Source: Olavius algarvensis Gamma 3 endosymbiont (GTDB lineage: Bacteria > Pseudomonadota > Gammaproteobacteria > GCA-001735895). Taken from it: a stretch of 37,194 bases of DNA. The notes under the pieces are model-generated. The model had not been told where the DNA came from. It did not search any database and worked only from the letters and a program-made list of their open reading frames with translations. The stretch is taken from positions 875,363-912,556 of the forward strand of contig DS021198.1 in NCBI GenBank assembly GCA_001735895.1, given 5' to 3'. Position 1 is the stretch's first letter. Each line of letters begins with the position of its first letter. Position numbers and translations under genes: made by a program. Shown here piece by piece: positions 8,770 to 15,665 of this stretch.

Positions 8770-9486
8770 TTACTTAATTTCGGTCTTGTAGCTGAACATG
8801 TCGCTACGACCCTTGGCGATCCGAATTTCGATTATTTCATTGTCACGTGTATAGGTTTTGCGATGCAGTACCAGCACGGGTGTATTCATTTCGGCTTCCA
8901 GGATGCGGGCGGTTTTTTCGGTAATCATTTCCGCGGTCAGCGTTTCCTCAGCACGCACCACCGGGACGTCGTATTTGTCGACCACCAGCGCGTAAAACAA
9001 ATCCGGAATGTGGATATCTTCGTTTTCGAGTCCGGGCAGGACATCCGCGCGCCAGCGTGAGAATTCAACCATTACGGGCCTGTTCTCGATATAACCCACC
9101 CGTTCGATATAAAGCAGATCAGTCGTGTCTGGGACACCCATCTTATTGCAGATTTCGGCGTTACCGGTTTCGATATAACGTTGCGTCGTCTGCTTGTCGA
9201 TACGTACGCTATCACCCTCGATATCGCCGTAAGACACGTAGTTGAACAAGCTATTGTTGAAATCGATCCGCGAGACGTATGTTCCCTTGCCTTGATGCCG
9301 GTATAGCTTGTTTTCCCAAACCAGGTTATCGATCGCTTTCTTCACGGTACCCTGGCTGACACCTAACAAGCTGGCCAGCTGCGGTTCAGACGGGATTAAG
9401 TCGCCTGATATCAATTGTCCCGAGTCGATAAGTACGTTGATATGGTCTTCAACGATCCGGTAAAGCGGTTTGGCAGCCTGAATCAT
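8770..9486 (-). CDS. GntR-family (HutC/UTRA type) transcriptional regulator
   Basis: 238 residues. The N-terminal winged helix-turn-helix covers about 5-75 (LIPSEPQLASLLGVSQGTVKKAI, then wing HQGKGTYVS). A UTRA effector-binding domain covers about 95-233 (YIERVGYIENRPVMVEFSRW, TAEMITEKTARILEA). HutC-type regulators usually repress neighbouring uptake and catabolic genes until the substrate or its CoA or phospho form binds the UTRA domain. The gene is divergent from the transporter/enzyme genes and faces a 20-bp palindrome. The start is supported by GAGGAAG just before the ATG. Likely local, autoregulated regulator of the island; the effector is unknown. Confidence 0.93.
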   Translation of the reverse strand: MIQAAKPLYRIVEDHINVLIDSGQLISGDLIPSEPQLASLLGVSQGTVKKAIDNLVWENKLYRHQGKGTYVSRIDFNNSLFNYVSYGDIEGDSVRIDKQTTQRYIETGNAEICNKMGVPDTTDLLYIERVGYIENRPVMVEFSRWRADVLPGLENEDIHIPDLFYALVVDKYDVPVVRAEETLTAEMITEKTARILEAEMNTPVLVLHRKTYTRDNEIIEIRIAKGRSDMFSYKTEIK

Positions 9487-9543
9487 ATCTTCCTCAATAA
9501 TTCGTTGACAAATGCCCTGAAATGCGCCAACATCTATCTCAAG

Positions 9544-9563
9544 TAACTCATATATATGAGTTA
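9544..9563. promoter_or_regulatory. Probable GntR operator: 20-bp perfect palindrome
   Basis: TAACTCATATATATGAGTTA is fully self-complementary. It ends where a plus-strand TATAAT (9564-9569) begins and covers the expected start point of a minus-strand promoter. A bound regulator would therefore block both divergent transcripts. Operator role is inferred from position and symmetry. Confidence 0.7.
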
Positions 9564-9569
9564 TATAAT
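9564..9569 (+). promoter_or_regulatory. Candidate -10 element of the transporter operon
   Basis: TATAAT lies directly downstream of the palindrome. The base positions expected for -35 (near 9541) hold only AAGTAA, so the promoter may need activation or be weak. An upstream TTGACA at 9505-9510 has no good -10 partner. Confidence 0.4.
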
Positions 9570-9595
9570 ATAGCTAAATAATAAATATAACACAA
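9567..9595 (-). promoter_or_regulatory. Candidate sigma70 promoter of the GntR gene
   Basis: On the minus strand TTGTGT (9590-9595) and TATATT (9567-9572) are separated by exactly 17 bases. Transcription would begin near 9560, inside the palindrome, which fits autorepression. Confidence 0.5.
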
Positions 9596-9618
9596 AAGCA
9601 GCTTGAGGAGGCCAGACG

Positions 9619-11115
9619 ATGGACTTTATCAACTATTTTGGCAATGTATTTACGCCGTATCACCTGATGCTGCTGCTCGGTGGTACCACGGCAGGATTGA
9701 TGCTAGGGGCTTTGCCCGGACTCAGTCCCACCATGGCGGTAGCGTTGATCATTCCATTCACCTTTCATATGCAACCCGATAGCGGGTTGATTTTACTCGG
9801 CGCCATGTATACCGCGACCGTAGCCGGGGGCGCAATTAGCGCTATCCTGGTAAACGTACCCGGAGCCCCGGCCAATATCGCCACCGCGCTGGACGGGCAC
9901 GAAATGGCGCGCCAGGGTAGGGCCTCCGAAGCACTTCATTTTTGTTTTTTCAGCTCGTTTGTCGGCGGCATCTTCGGTATCCTGATTCTGATATTTTTTA
10001 CGCCTCCGTTAGCTGAACTGGCACTCAAATTTGGACCCACCGAACTCTTCTGGATCGCTATTCTCGGCATCACGGTAATCGGTACCATCGGCAGTAAGTC
10101 GGTTTTGAAGGGTTTGATGGCAGGCTTGTTTGGATTGGCGATTTCAACCATTGGCGACAATCCCATGCTCGGTGAGCAACGCTTTGTTTATAGCGATCAT
10201 CTGGAAAGCGGAATTCATATCGTCGCCGCATTAATCGGTCTGTTTGCGTTACCTCAGATACTCACCCTGCTGGAAGAATGTCGTAAAGGCAACCGAGGTT
10301 CCATGTATGCACTGAGCCAATCGAGATGGTATCAGTCGATGAATTATAATTTACGCCGGGCCAAGGCGTTGACGATCGGATCCTTCGTTGGCGCCATCGT
10401 CGGCGTTATCCCGGGCGCCGGGGGGCAGATTGCGGGACTTGTCGCCTACGATCAGGTTAAAAAAACTAGCGACAACCCGCTGAATTTCGGTCAGGGCGAA
10501 CCGGATGGAATCATCGCCGCCGAATCGGCGAACAACGCCATGGTCGGACCCTCGCTAGTACCCTTGCTAACCTTGAGTATCCCCGGCAGTCCGACCGCGG
10601 CGGTGCTATTGGGCGGACTGCTCATTCATGGCCTGTTTCCCGGTCCCGACCTGTTCACTATGCATGGCGAAGTGATATGGACCTTCATCGATTCACTAAT
10701 CGTCGCGCAGGTATTCATGCTGGTGATCGGCTTGTTTTTGAGCCGTCACAGCGGCTGGATTATGAAGGTACCGCCCAACTATATGGCGGCATCGATTCTG
10801 GTTTTGGCCGTATTCGGCACCTATAGCATCCAGTCGAGTTATTCAGATGTGTTAATCATGATGGTGCTTGGCGTCATAATGTACTTCGCCAGCAAATTAG
10901 GTTTCAGCCCCGCCCCGGTAGTGCTCGGAATCATCCTCGGTCCGATTGCCGAGGACAATTTTCTGCAGGGCAAGTTAATCGGCGAAGCCGGCGACGGCAT
11001 GTTTAACTATTTCTTCAGTGGCACGATCAACCTGGTGCTAATCTTGGCCACCGTCGGTTCGATCGCGTATAGCGTGTACGCCGGCCACAAGATGAAAAAG
11101 AGGGCCACAGCATGA
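9619..11115 (+). CDS. Tripartite tricarboxylate transporter large membrane subunit (TctA type)
   Basis: 498 residues with about twelve hydrophobic segments. Family features include the repeated glycine/proline motifs GALPGLSPTMAVALIIPFTF (near residue 30) and VGVIPGAGGQIAGLVAYD (near 260), plus SIPGSPTAAVLLGGLLIHG. TctA carries the solute across the inner membrane using a cation gradient, with solute delivered by the periplasmic TctC-type protein. Ribosome site GAGGAGG lies 7 bases before the ATG. It overlaps the TctB-type gene by four bases. The transported compound is not readable from the sequence; the downstream enzymes suggest a small sulfonated or carboxylated acid. Confidence 0.95.
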   Translation: MDFINYFGNVFTPYHLMLLLGGTTAGLMLGALPGLSPTMAVALIIPFTFHMQPDSGLILLGAMYTATVAGGAISAILVNVPGAPANIATALDGHEMARQGRASEALHFCFFSSFVGGIFGILILIFFTPPLAELALKFGPTELFWIAILGITVIGTIGSKSVLKGLMAGLFGLAISTIGDNPMLGEQRFVYSDHLESGIHIVAALIGLFALPQILTLLEECRKGNRGSMYALSQSRWYQSMNYNLRRAKALTIGSFVGAIVGVIPGAGGQIAGLVAYDQVKKTSDNPLNFGQGEPDGIIAAESANNAMVGPSLVPLLTLSIPGSPTAAVLLGGLLIHGLFPGPDLFTMHGEVIWTFIDSLIVAQVFMLVIGLFLSRHSGWIMKVPPNYMAASILVLAVFGTYSIQSSYSDVLIMMVLGVIMYFASKLGFSPAPVVLGIILGPIAEDNFLQGKLIGEAGDGMFNYFFSGTINLVLILATVGSIAYSVYAGHKMKKRATA

Positions 11116-11564
11116 TAAATCTGAAAAATATCGAACAGGCCGCGGCCGTTTATGCCCTGATCGCGGCAAGCGTTTTCGCTTTCCTTTCGTTTTACGGCAC
11201 CGATGGCGAAACCTACTTGTTTCCGCGCATCATCGCGGTGGTGCTTGCCTTGATGTCGGTGTCGCTGTTAATCGCCAACTGGTCATCGAAGAACGACAAT
11301 CGTTCCGATAGCGGTTATTTCGCCGAAATCTGGCCCGGGATGGTGGTCGGCCTGGTTTTCCTGTTGGTGATGGAAGACCTCGGTTTTTACGTCAGTTCTT
11401 TTTTTGCATTCCTGGCCATTTTGCTGCTTTACGGCGTGCGCCCAATCACGGACATCAAGGCTTTGATCATGAAGTCGAGCGCGGCCCTGGCATTCATGGC
11501 CATCTTGTATTTTCTGTTCTGGAACGGGTTAAACGTCAGAACCCCGACCGGAATTCTTTTTTAA
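11112..11564 (+). CDS. Tripartite tricarboxylate transporter small membrane subunit (TctB type)
   Basis: 150 residues with four hydrophobic segments (about 13-30, 38-57, 80-105 and 115-137). Its small size, hydrophobic profile and four-base overlap with the large subunit gene fit TctB. TctB proteins are poorly conserved, so assignment leans on context. It forms the membrane complex with the large subunit. A 60-base gap with an AGAGAGGAGG ribosome site leads to the binding-protein gene. Confidence 0.9.
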   Translation: MINLKNIEQAAAVYALIAASVFAFLSFYGTDGETYLFPRIIAVVLALMSVSLLIANWSSKNDNRSDSGYFAEIWPGMVVGLVFLLVMEDLGFYVSSFFAFLAILLLYGVRPITDIKALIMKSSAALAFMAILYFLFWNGLNVRTPTGILF

Positions 11565-11624: not shown

Positions 11625-12545
11625 ATGAAACCAACCAAACTCAAACCATCCAGTGCAATCTTGCTGGCGATGCTAAGCGGAGCTGTCTTGCTCGGCCTGT
11701 CAACCGTTACCAGAGCGGAATATCCGGATCGGCCGATAGGCGTCATGGTCGCCTACAATCCGGGGGGCGCAACCGATTTTCAGGCGCGCATCGCCACCCT
11801 GGCATCCGCCAAGGAAAAAGACGGGGGATTTGTATCGGTAGGCCAGCCTATTTACGTTATCAACAAGCCGGGTGCCGGTGGGCGTAAAGGTTGGAACTGG
11901 TTTGCCGACAAGGCCGCGAAAGACGGCTACATGTTGGCCGCTTACAACGTGCCGCATTTTATTGCGCAATCCATTGTTTTCGATACTAAATACAACGTCG
12001 ACAACCTGGAGCCGGTGGGTAACTGGGGTGCGGATCCGGCGGTGCTAATCGTCGGCAAGGACAGTCAATTCAATTCGGCCACGGAACTTGTCGATTACGC
12101 CAAAAGTAATCCCGGTAAGGTAACCGTCAGCGGCGCCGGTAAATTTGTCGGCCATCATATCGCCCACCTGCAGTTTGAAAAAGCCGCCGGGATCAAGCTT
12201 AAATATGTTCCTGGAAAAGGTGGTGTCGGCGCGATGAAACTGGTCAAGGGAGGCCAGGTCAAGGCGGGTTTTAACAACCTGTCGGATGCCGCGCGTGCGG
12301 CCACCGACATCAAAATCCTGGCGGTGGCCGACCTCGAACGTCATGATTTCCTGCCCGATGTCCCGACCTTTAAGGAACTGGGAATTTCGGTAGACAATTC
12401 CAGCGTCAACTTCCGCGGACTGATGGTACCCAAGGGCACTCCGCAGGCGGTAATCGATCATCTCGCCAAATCGGTTCTGTTCAGGACAGAAAACATCGGC
12501 AAGATGAAACAGACCAATTCACCGCGTTCGCATCATGTCTCGTGA
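11625..12545 (+). CDS. Tripartite tricarboxylate transporter periplasmic binding protein (TctC type), 3' end frameshifted
   Basis: 306 residues as read. A signal peptide with a probable cut after A31 (TVTRA-EYPDRP) is followed by the TctC/Bug fold, with typical motifs YNPGGATDFQARI, VINKPGAGGRKGWNWFA and LPDVPTFKELG. The protein captures the solute in the periplasm and presents it to the TctA/TctB subunits. The last residues after TNSP (PRSHHVS) do not look like the family. The expected C-terminal helix is present in another frame at 12526-12612. One extra base near 12525, or two missing, would explain this. The true protein, if intact, would end at 12612 and be about 328 residues. Either a sequencing or assembly error or a recent mutation removing the last helix. 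Confidence 0.88.
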   Translation: MKPTKLKPSSAILLAMLSGAVLLGLSTVTRAEYPDRPIGVMVAYNPGGATDFQARIATLASAKEKDGGFVSVGQPIYVINKPGAGGRKGWNWFADKAAKDGYMLAAYNVPHFIAQSIVFDTKYNVDNLEPVGNWGADPAVLIVGKDSQFNSATELVDYAKSNPGKVTVSGAGKFVGHHIAHLQFEKAAGIKLKYVPGKGGVGAMKLVKGGQVKAGFNNLSDAARAATDIKILAVADLERHDFLPDVPTFKELGISVDNSSVNFRGLMVPKGTPQAVIDHLAKSVLFRTENIGKMKQTNSPRSHHVS

Positions 12546-12612
12546 TGAAGTTATTTCGATGTGGAAGGAGCGACAGACGGCGTTAAGCGAATTGTTGAGA
12601 GATCTGAAGTGA
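12526..12612 (+). pseudogene. Displaced C-terminal codons of the TctC-type gene
   Basis: This frame reads VRIMSRDEVISMWKERQTAL and then SELLRDLK before the stop at 12610-12612. The pattern, a conserved MSxxEV..MW..R stretch and a helix, is the usual end of TctC/Bug proteins. It continues the frame of 11625 only after a one-base shift at about 12525. Confidence 0.75.
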
Positions 12613-12674: not shown

Positions 12675-14108
12675 GTGGCATTCCAGACGACAGCTGAAGC
12701 ACAGGACAAGGTCGGCAAGCTCATTGCTCGCGCCCGCAACGCGCAAAAGCTGTATGAACATTTCGACCAGCAGCAAGTGGACGAAGTTGTGACCGCGGTT
12801 GGCTGGGCGATCGTCAATGAGACCAACAATTGTCTGTTGACCGAAATGGCGATCGGCGACACAGGAATCGGTAAATACGAAGATAAAATTCGTAAAAACC
12901 ACCGCAAGACGATGGGCCTGTTACGTGATCTCCAGGGCGCAAAGACGGTCGGCGTCATTGCGGAGTATCCCGCCAAAGGGCTGATCGAAATTGCCCGCCC
13001 GGTTGGCGTCGTCGGCGCCGTCGTGCCTTCCACCAATCCCGTGGCGACTCCCTTTAACAAGGTCATTAATGCCCTCAAGGGGCGAAACGCCATCATTCTG
13101 GCGCCATCGCCGAAAGGACAGAATGTCTGCGCCAAGCTGGTTGAACTGATTCACGCCGAATTAAGCCGGGTCGGCGCACCGACTGAGCTGGTGCAGCACC
13201 TGGATTTACCGGTCAACAAGATCGAAACCTACGAGTTGATGCGCCAGGTCGATCTGATTGTCGCGACGGGTTCAGGAAACAACGTACGCGCCTGCTACGA
13301 AAGCGGTACCCCGGCGGTCGGGGTCGGCGCCGGCAATGTCCCGGTAATCGTCGACAGCGGAGCCGATCTTGCCGATGCCGCTGCCAAAATCTGCGCCTCC
13401 AAGACCTTCGACAATGCAACCAGTTGCTCTTCAGAAAACAGTCTCGTCATTCACGATGCCGTCTATGAGGATATGGTCGCGGCCTTACAGCGGCAGGGTG
13501 GTTGGCTGCTGAATAGCGAAGAAAAACAACGCTTACAGGATGTGTTATGGGTCGACGGCCATCTCAGTCGCGATGTGATTGCGCAAACCGCGGACAAGAT
13601 TGCGCACTTGGCCGGGTTGTCGCGCGACGACGAAGAACCAAGCATCTTGATGGTGGAAGAAAGCGGTATTGGCGCCGACCATCCGTTTTCCGATGAAAAA
13701 CTCAGTCCGGTGCTTACCCTGTACCGCGCGCGCGATTTCGACTACGCCTTTACCATCGTGGAACAAATTCTCGATTTCAAAGGTAAGGGACATTCGGTGG
13801 GGATACATACCGACAATGATGCACATGTCATGCGTTTGGGTCTCGAGATGCCAACCTGTCGGGTTATCGTCAACCAGGCGCATTGTTTCGCGACCGGCGG
13901 CAGTTTTGACAACGGCTTGCCGTTCTCCCTGTCGATGGGCTGCGGCTCCTGGGGCGGTAACAGCATTCCCGATAACATGAATTATCGTCATTTTCTTAAT
14001 ATTACCCGGATCGCGCGTACGATTCCCGCCGTCGAACCCAGTGTTTCCGATATCTTCGGTGAATTCTGGCAGCGGCATGATATCCGTGGCGACGATGGTG
14101 ATATTTGA
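12675..14108 (+). CDS. CoA-acylating aldehyde dehydrogenase, probable sulfoacetaldehyde dehydrogenase (SauS-like)
   Basis: 477 residues of the acylating aldehyde dehydrogenase family (EutE/AdhE-N/SauS branch). The probable catalytic cysteine is C251 in DNATSCSSENS. Also visible are VATGSGNNVRACYESG and GVGAGNVPVIVD (nucleotide binding), and the C-terminal FATGGSFDNGLP with CGSWGGNSIPDN. SauS of Cupriavidus reduces sulfoacetyl-CoA to sulfoacetaldehyde with NADPH and release of CoA. The adjacent ligase would provide the CoA ester. The GTG start is chosen because GAGGGGAG ends four bases before it. The stop abuts the ligase ATG. An acylating enzyme of this class is near certain; the sulfoacetate assignment rests on family resemblance recalled from memory and on gene order. 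No xsc is present in the window. Confidence 0.85.
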   Translation: MAFQTTAEAQDKVGKLIARARNAQKLYEHFDQQQVDEVVTAVGWAIVNETNNCLLTEMAIGDTGIGKYEDKIRKNHRKTMGLLRDLQGAKTVGVIAEYPAKGLIEIARPVGVVGAVVPSTNPVATPFNKVINALKGRNAIILAPSPKGQNVCAKLVELIHAELSRVGAPTELVQHLDLPVNKIETYELMRQVDLIVATGSGNNVRACYESGTPAVGVGAGNVPVIVDSGADLADAAAKICASKTFDNATSCSSENSLVIHDAVYEDMVAALQRQGGWLLNSEEKQRLQDVLWVDGHLSRDVIAQTADKIAHLAGLSRDDEEPSILMVEESGIGADHPFSDEKLSPVLTLYRARDFDYAFTIVEQILDFKGKGHSVGIHTDNDAHVMRLGLEMPTCRVIVNQAHCFATGGSFDNGLPFSLSMGCGSWGGNSIPDNMNYRHFLNITRIARTIPAVEPSVSDIFGEFWQRHDIRGDDGDI

Positions 14109-15665
14109 ATGGATACCGTAGCTTCGATCATCGATCGCAATGCTGCAAGTCAACCCGACGCCGTGTTCCTGGTGGCGCCCGAAATCAACTATCAACTCAG
14201 TTATAACAGCCTGGCCGATTACGCCAAACGCGTTACGGAAAAACTGGATGGCCTCGAACTGGGCAAGGGAGAAAAGGTCGCATTCCTGATGAACAACGGC
14301 CTTTGGACCGCAATCCTGTTTCTCGGCACGATGTATGCCGGGCGAACCATATTACCGCTGAATGCGGTCAGCGGCGAAGCCAATCTGGAGTACGTGATCA
14401 ACCACTCCGACGCCAAAGTGTTGTTCATCGAAGAGGAATTCATACAGAAGTTTTCGCGCTTGCTGGAAAAGATTCCCGCCTCGGTACTTGTGATCAAAAC
14501 TTTACGCGACACCGGCCCCCTGTGGCCGCAACGCGATGCCTCGAAAGCCACGCCGCAGGTAATTCCGGACGCCGACGACGAAGCCTTGCTAATTTATACA
14601 TCGGGTACCACAGGCCGCCCCAAGGGAGTAGTGCTAACCCATCGATCGGTTATAGCAGGGGGTGAAAACACCGCGGTCGCGCACGACTTGGTCGCTGCTG
14701 ATCGCGCGCTATGCGTATTGCAGCTATATCATATCAACGGTGAAATGGTGACTTTGATGGGACCGCTGGTCAGCGGCGGTAGCGTGGTAATGCCTACGCG
14801 GTTTAGCGTTAACGAGTTCTGGGGATTGATCGACAACTGGAATTGCAGCTGGTTCAGCGTGGTACCGACAATCATCGCGTATTTGCTGGAGCAGGCCGAA
14901 CGCCTGAAGCAAGCCCCATTCGATGCGGGGCAAAGACCGCGCCTGCGTTTCGGGCGTTCGGCATCGGCCCCGCTTTCACCCGACATGCATCGCCAGTTCG
15001 AACAGCGGTTTTCGGTTCCAATCGTGGAAACCATGGGGCTTACCGAAACGGCCGCGCAGATTCTTTCCAATCCGATGCCGCCGGCTCGGCCTAGGTATGG
15101 CTCACCGGGCATCGCCATTGGAAACGAAGCGAAAATCGTCGACAAAAAAGGGCGTGAGCAGCCGCGCGGTAAACCCGGTGAGTTGATGATTCGCGGCGAT
15201 AACGTGATGAAGGAGTACTACAAAAATCCAGAGGCGACGCGCGCGGCCCTGACCAGTGAGGGATGGTTGTACACGGGTGATCTCGCCTACCAAGACGCTG
15301 ACGGCTATTTTTATATCACCGGCAGGTTAAAGGAAATTATTATCAAGGGCGGTGAAAATATTGCCCCGCGGGAAATAGACGAAACCTTGTATCTGCATCC
15401 GGCTGTGCTCGAAGCGGCGGCTTATGCGGTCGCGGATAAGGCCTACGGGCAGGAAGTTTTCGCCTGCGTTGCACTGAAACCCGGCTGCTCCTGTACTGCC
15501 GAAGAGTTACGCGAGTTTTGTATCGACAAGCTGGGTAAGTTCAAGGCGCCACGCGAAATTTCCTTTATGCAGGAGTTGCCAAAAGGCCCGTCGGGAAAAA
15601 TTCAGCGGCGCATTTTGTCGGAAGCGGCACCACAGGTGGCCGAACAGATTCCGGTATCGGACTGA
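14109..15665 (+). CDS. AMP-forming acyl-CoA synthetase, probable sulfoacetate-CoA ligase (SauT-like)
   Basis: 518 residues of the class I adenylate-forming (ANL) family. Motifs in order: the P-loop-like YTSGTTGRPKG near residue 160, MGLTETAAQ near 307, YTGDLAYQDADGYFYITGR near 390, GGENIAPREID near 417, and the C-terminal catalytic-lysine motif GPSGKIQRR near 500. Such enzymes activate a carboxylate as acyl-AMP and transfer it to coenzyme A in the cytoplasm. The ATG directly follows the dehydrogenase stop with no gap, so translation is coupled and the two enzymes probably act in sequence: acid to CoA ester to aldehyde. This pair matches sauT and sauS. Other short acids remain possible as substrates. 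Confidence 0.85.
   Translation: MDTVASIIDRNAASQPDAVFLVAPEINYQLSYNSLADYAKRVTEKLDGLELGKGEKVAFLMNNGLWTAILFLGTMYAGRTILPLNAVSGEANLEYVINHSDAKVLFIEEEFIQKFSRLLEKIPASVLVIKTLRDTGPLWPQRDASKATPQVIPDADDEALLIYTSGTTGRPKGVVLTHRSVIAGGENTAVAHDLVAADRALCVLQLYHINGEMVTLMGPLVSGGSVVMPTRFSVNEFWGLIDNWNCSWFSVVPTIIAYLLEQAERLKQAPFDAGQRPRLRFGRSASAPLSPDMHRQFEQRFSVPIVETMGLTETAAQILSNPMPPARPRYGSPGIAIGNEAKIVDKKGREQPRGKPGELMIRGDNVMKEYYKNPEATRAALTSEGWLYTGDLAYQDADGYFYITGRLKEIIIKGGENIAPREIDETLYLHPAVLEAAAYAVADKAYGQEVFACVALKPGCSCTAEELREFCIDKLGKFKAPREISFMQELPKGPSGKIQRRILSEAAPQVAEQIPVSD

Follow-up and report, generated by a model that had tools for sequence, protein, structure and literature searches.

A conserved palindrome as candidate repressor operator of a HutC-subfamily GntR regulator at a tctABC-sauS operon in the Olavius algarvensis Gamma 3 endosymbiont

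A divergent gntR-tctABC-sauS locus and its palindrome

The stretch of DNA analyzed here (the window) comprises 37,194 nt from the Olavius algarvensis Gamma 3 endosymbiont (GCA_001735895.1, DS021198.1, positions 875,363 to 912,556, forward strand). It contains a gene for a GntR-type regulator and, diverging from it, an operon for a tripartite TTT permease, an acylating sulfoacetaldehyde dehydrogenase and an acyl-CoA ligase. The features discussed below are as follows, in window coordinates.

8770-9486, minus strand: GntR/HutC-subfamily regulator of 238 aa, winged helix plus UTRA (domain matches and AlphaFold model)
9505-9533, plus strand: likely operon promoter P1, TTGACA (9505-9510), 17 nt, CAACAT (9528-9533); start expected near 9540; the -10 is weak
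9544-9563, no strand assigned: candidate operator, the perfect 20-bp palindrome TAACTCATATATATGAGTTA, conserved beside 24 orthologous regulators
9564-9569, plus strand: TATAAT adjoining the operator, originally predicted as a rightward -10, without a matching -35; role uncertain
9567-9595, minus strand: originally predicted leftward promoter, TTGTGT (9595-9590), 17 nt, TATATT (9572-9567); predicted start inside the palindrome
9619-11115, plus strand: tctA-like TTT permease, large subunit
11112-11564, plus strand: tctB-like TTT permease, small subunit
11625-12612, plus strand: tctC-like solute-binding protein; the open frame ends at 12545, with a homologous C-terminus in the +1 frame to 12612
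12675-14108, plus strand: sauS, acylating sulfoacetaldehyde dehydrogenase (NF047625, 742 bits; cut-off, 600)
14109-15665, plus strand: AMP-forming acyl-CoA ligase, probably a SauT-like sulfoacetate-CoA ligase, judging its substrate from the neighborhood

The regulator has an N-terminal GntR winged helix (PF00392, 52.7 bits; cut-off, 27) and a C-terminal UTRA effector domain (PF07702, 89.4 bits; cut-off, 23.8). Given that the operon pairs SauS with a CoA ligase, its substrate is probably sulfoacetate or a close small sulfonate; when the ligase was compared with NCBIfam, none of the best 25 ligase models listed reached its cut-off. Among open-licence papers, we found no published GntR regulator of a sulfoacetate operon. 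In the tctC-like gene, C-terminal homology to L030 and L031 picks up again in the +1 frame (window 12440-12612). The sequence also departs over a short stretch ahead of the frameshift, which points to more than one indel; these may reflect either assembly error or decay. The genome encodes a second SauS homolog (53% identical) at another position (L032 5000-6505; G000:C2:391011-392402), with transposase-like frames nearby, and the operator motif was not found there.

The original prediction, made from the window alone, placed a perfect 20-bp palindrome between the divergent genes, and TAACTCATATATATGAGTTA lies exactly there, at 9544-9563. It is the longest perfect palindrome of the window, the sole one of at least 18 bp, and its exact sequence occurs once in the 4.87-Mb genome. 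Such symmetry had been judged unlikely by chance, as our shuffles bear out: dinucleotide shuffling produced 0.05 palindromes of at least 20 bp per 37-kb window, and one of that size turned up in only 0.035% of shuffled versions of the intergenic region, which is AT-rich and 132 bp long. Together with the conservation described below, these results rule out a chance origin.

Conservation of the site beside orthologous regulators

To find orthologs, we used a profile from an alignment of three regulators, a first scan with the single regulator protein having found nothing. The profile retrieved 26 loci, of which 24 were taken as orthologs; a locus with a partial gene and no operon found (L058) and a Cohnella locus with a 33% identical regulator (L059) were set aside. 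Sampling across the class and phylum gained one extra genome. The orthologs, all HutC/UTRA GntR regulators, are 48 to 74% identical to the window regulator and come from several gammaproteobacterial lineages, with records that include Chromatiales, Oceanospirillaceae, Neptunomonas japonica, Zobellella maritima, and Aliamphritea spongicola. In nearly all of these loci tctA, tctC, sauS, and the ligase gene lie near the regulator; contigs are short at L037, L044, and L050, and at L056 sauS alone was found of the operon.

The same palindrome accompanies these regulators. Counting the window, a site within two mismatches of TNNSTCATNTANATGASNNA is present at 25 of 25 loci and within one mismatch at 24, counts that are slightly flattering because the motif was refined on the same loci. 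Nor are the loci all independent: many are MAG-derived, and some are closely related to one another. The first scan, run with a C-only motif, found no site at one mismatch and two at two mismatches among 1,040 shuffled upstream regions. Two genomes of the same genus, G028 and G015, recur among the orthologs (as L035 and L060, respectively). All 20 bp are identical in G028, whose regulator is 74% identical, while G015 (regulator 73% identical) carries TAGGTCATATATATGACCTA within a 28-bp perfect palindrome, CAACTAGGTCATATATATGACCTAGTTG, both halves having been altered together. Against the nearest relative, intergenic identity outside the palindrome falls to ∼50% (all columns, gaps counted), yet all 20 bp are preserved.

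The two halves of the site also change together across the family. A comparison of 28 distinct sites with shuffled halves showed excess pairing at positions 7 and 8 from the center (36 versus 26.4, P = 0.002) and none at positions 9 and 10. The conserved core reads S-T-C-A-T-n-T / A-n-A-T-G-A-S, with base 2 from the center free in both halves. Covarying half-sites are as expected for a dimer site, and the proposal that a GntR dimer would bind here is strongly supported by the presence of the site at all 25 loci, the paired changes, and the location at the operon start.

Loci in which the divergent arrangement has been lost indicate which gene the site follows. Regulator and operon are codirectional at L046, L047, L048, and L057, and the regulator lies downstream of the operon at L055. 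Because all five keep their best site in front of the operon, the motif belongs to the operon promoter and not simply to gntR. The predicted control of the transporter operon by this site is well supported. At L056 the site lies between gntR and sauS. A universal-stress-protein-like gene, its family recognized by eye, precedes tctA at L047 (9191-9634) and L048 (9025-9534).

Further copies of the operator occur at some loci. Two operators stand 73 to 88 bp apart (73 to 75 or 85 to 88) at L036 to L041 and L043, a spacing of ∼7 or 8 helical turns that flanks the operon promoter, so that looping is possible. An additional copy lies within the operon, ∼70 to 100 bp before sauS, at L042 (4557), L046 (7716), and L055 (4544), with weaker traces at L048 and L057; a second operator in this position was looked for in the window and not found. 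We also scanned the window's genome for a wider regulon. At two mismatches the motif had 19 hits and its reversed control 18, which leaves the local site as the only one to stand out.

Binding by the neighboring regulator is a prediction from sequence, and the site could instead serve another transcription factor encoded elsewhere. The distribution of the site makes this very unlikely: among 31 genomes of the genus it occurs at three or fewer mismatches in only two, both of which carry this regulator, and G015, the remaining one of the three carriers, shows the variant described above. Paralogous regulators of the genus, moreover, own a different palindrome (see below).

Promoters around the operator

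A promoter element is conserved with the site. TTGAC occurs 25 to 50 bp upstream of the operon site at 16 of 25 loci, where 0.7 would be expected, and at ortholog loci a -10-like hexamer usually follows 16 to 18 bp further on. The corresponding element of the window is P1; relative to its expected start, the operator would span about +5 to +24, where a bound protein would be in a blocking position. The geometry varies in the family. At seven other loci (L044, L045, and L050 to L054) TTGACT is fused to the left edge of the operator, and at L050 to L053 the best promoter call passes through the site. On the gntR side, at L036, L040, L041, and L043 the gntR-proximal operator occupies the spacer of the likely gntR promoter, with the -35 and -10 on either side of it, and a copy at L056 likewise lies between these two elements.

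The original prediction had arranged these elements differently, with one operator overlapping both a rightward TATAAT promoter and a leftward TTGTGT-N17-TATATT promoter, so that regulator and transporter operon would be switched as one. Both hexamer sets are indeed present, and many relatives have a TATAAT-like hexamer after the operator. They are not the conserved elements, however: the TATAAT has no -35 at normal spacing in the window, and no promoter comparable to the leftward one was seen at the operator of the two nearest relatives, L035 and L060. A sigma-70 consensus scan of 9400-9700 called neither promoter, its total being no higher than for shuffles. Transcription of the operon from the TATAAT promoter is the less secure assignment; the prediction missed the conserved operon promoter, with its TTGACA at 9505, to the left of the palindrome. 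A single site for both units is plausible in the window, which has one site, and several two-site relatives put their second operator in the likely gntR promoter; it is not the rule of the family, seven relatives having two operators. We therefore consider a single switch acting at these two promoters possible but doubtful. Autoregulation of gntR is a separate matter. It is likely in the family, because the second operator falls within the likely gntR promoter in several two-site relatives, and the position of the site beside gntR suggests that it probably operates in the window as well.

A further reading, to which we give hardly any weight, is that the palindrome acts as an RNA hairpin in the tctA leader, affecting transcript stability or translation, with the paired changes kept for base pairing. 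The 103-nt leader does fold better than shuffles (z = -3.15), the palindrome forming a 9-bp stem, and the half-site changes are paired; yet the best promoter call passes through the site at L050 to L053, the copies between the gntR -35 and -10 at L036, L040, L041, L043, and L056 would be untranscribed from that likely promoter, an Rfam search gave no family match, and the site has the design of a duplex, without an unpaired loop and with base 2 from the center free in both halves.

The regulator, its relatives, and a proposed mechanism

The AlphaFold model of the regulator (mean pLDDT, 87.9) has YvoA/NagR, YydK, DasR, and PhnF as its best matches. Whole-chain rmsd values exceed 10 Å, which we read as a different placement of the DNA-binding domains, because the isolated UTRA/effector domains fit at ∼2 Å. 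The Bacillus subtilis GntR/HutC repressor NagR/YvoA shares the domain layout and fold of the window regulator. NagR confers effector-relieved repression on uptake and catabolic genes (PMC4333415), and its dre-sites resemble the window operator in layout, with half-sites, at -7 to -4, six base pairs apart (PMC4333415). The sequences differ: the palindromic dre construct GTGGTCTAGACCAC has G-5 and G-4, whereas the window operator has C-5 and A-4, and natural dre-sites are imperfect palindromes, whereas the window operator is perfect.

In NagR, Arg38 contacts G-5, Arg48 contacts G-4, and the wing residue Gly69 contacts G-7 in the minor groove (PMC4333415). Arg38 corresponds to Pro35 in the window regulator, invariant among the orthologs, and Arg48 corresponds to Gln45, a position at which the orthologs vary (Q, T, G, P, V, I); the wing glycine is retained. 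On the DNA side, C-5 and A-4 are near-constant and -7 is mostly C or G, which would suit a wing contact in the minor groove to a G-C pair in either orientation. We considered a contact from Gln45 to A-4 as the specificity rule and rejected it, since the operator core is the same in orthologs whose residue 45 is T, G, P, V, or I. Such variation at position 45 beside a nearly fixed C-5 and A-4 leaves the protein-DNA code without an explanation and weighs against our reading of the site.

Paralogous HutC regulators of the same genus, ∼33% identical to the window regulator (L004, L006, L007, L009 to L011, and L014), have a palindrome of their own, GTCTTATATAAGAC, ∼135 to 150 bp upstream of their genes and in some also at ∼256 bp. 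It was located at L006 2301, L007 2317, L010 1242, L011 2293, and L014 1361, in one or two copies ∼120 bp apart. At L006 and L010 the neighbors are UxaA-family dehydratase-like and FMN-dependent 2-hydroxyacid dehydrogenase-like genes, and L011 looks alike. The two palindromes have a common frame and differ at -4, which is T in the paralogs and A here. Tentatively, these regulators might form a HutC clade for small sulfonates with a shared half-site grammar, S-T-C-x-T-x-T, in which CTCAT would denote the sauS operon and GTCTT the paralog whose neighbor is a UxaA-family dehydratase-like gene, which may encode a sulfolactate lyase; part of the clade might add a repression loop between the two operators 73 to 88 bp apart around the operon promoter.

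We conclude that the palindrome is, with a probability of roughly 0.88, the repressor operator of the adjacent HutC-subfamily GntR regulator for the tctABC-sauS-ligase operon, and that it is probably autoregulatory. Comparison of sequences establishes the site and its dyad symmetry, shows that the site is conserved and tied to regulator and operon, and reveals the conserved promoter element; from these findings we infer binding, repression rather than activation, an effector, and autoregulation. In the proposed mechanism, a regulator dimer would sit on the palindrome with one winged-helix domain per half-site, just downstream of the operon -10 (TTGACA-N17-CAACAT), where it would block RNA polymerase and so repress tctABC-sauS-ligase. 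Binding of a small molecule of the pathway, sulfoacetate or a derivative, by the UTRA domain would then release the regulator. Expression of gntR would probably be damped by the same site, given its position beside that gene.

Related pathways offer partial parallels. In Cupriavidus necator, as here, the genes for SauS and a CoA ligase (sauST) are accompanied by a regulator of their own, SauR, and SauR-driven expression responds to sulfoacetate (PMC7057948); we claim no homology between the two regulators. The C. necator transporter is the single-gene SauU (PMC12625764), whereas the window operon encodes a TctABC-type TTT system, the transporter type found in the hybrid sauST-TTT clusters of sponge symbionts (PMC12625764). 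A GntR repressor with a palindromic operator beside its operon is a textbook mechanism, and the kind of switch is ordinary; for the site sequence itself we found no description in open-licence papers. Our results provide a candidate operator for a regulator that would govern how Gammaproteobacteria, several of which are marine, take up and break down an organosulfonate, probably sulfoacetate, and the operator motif could be used for finding the regulon.
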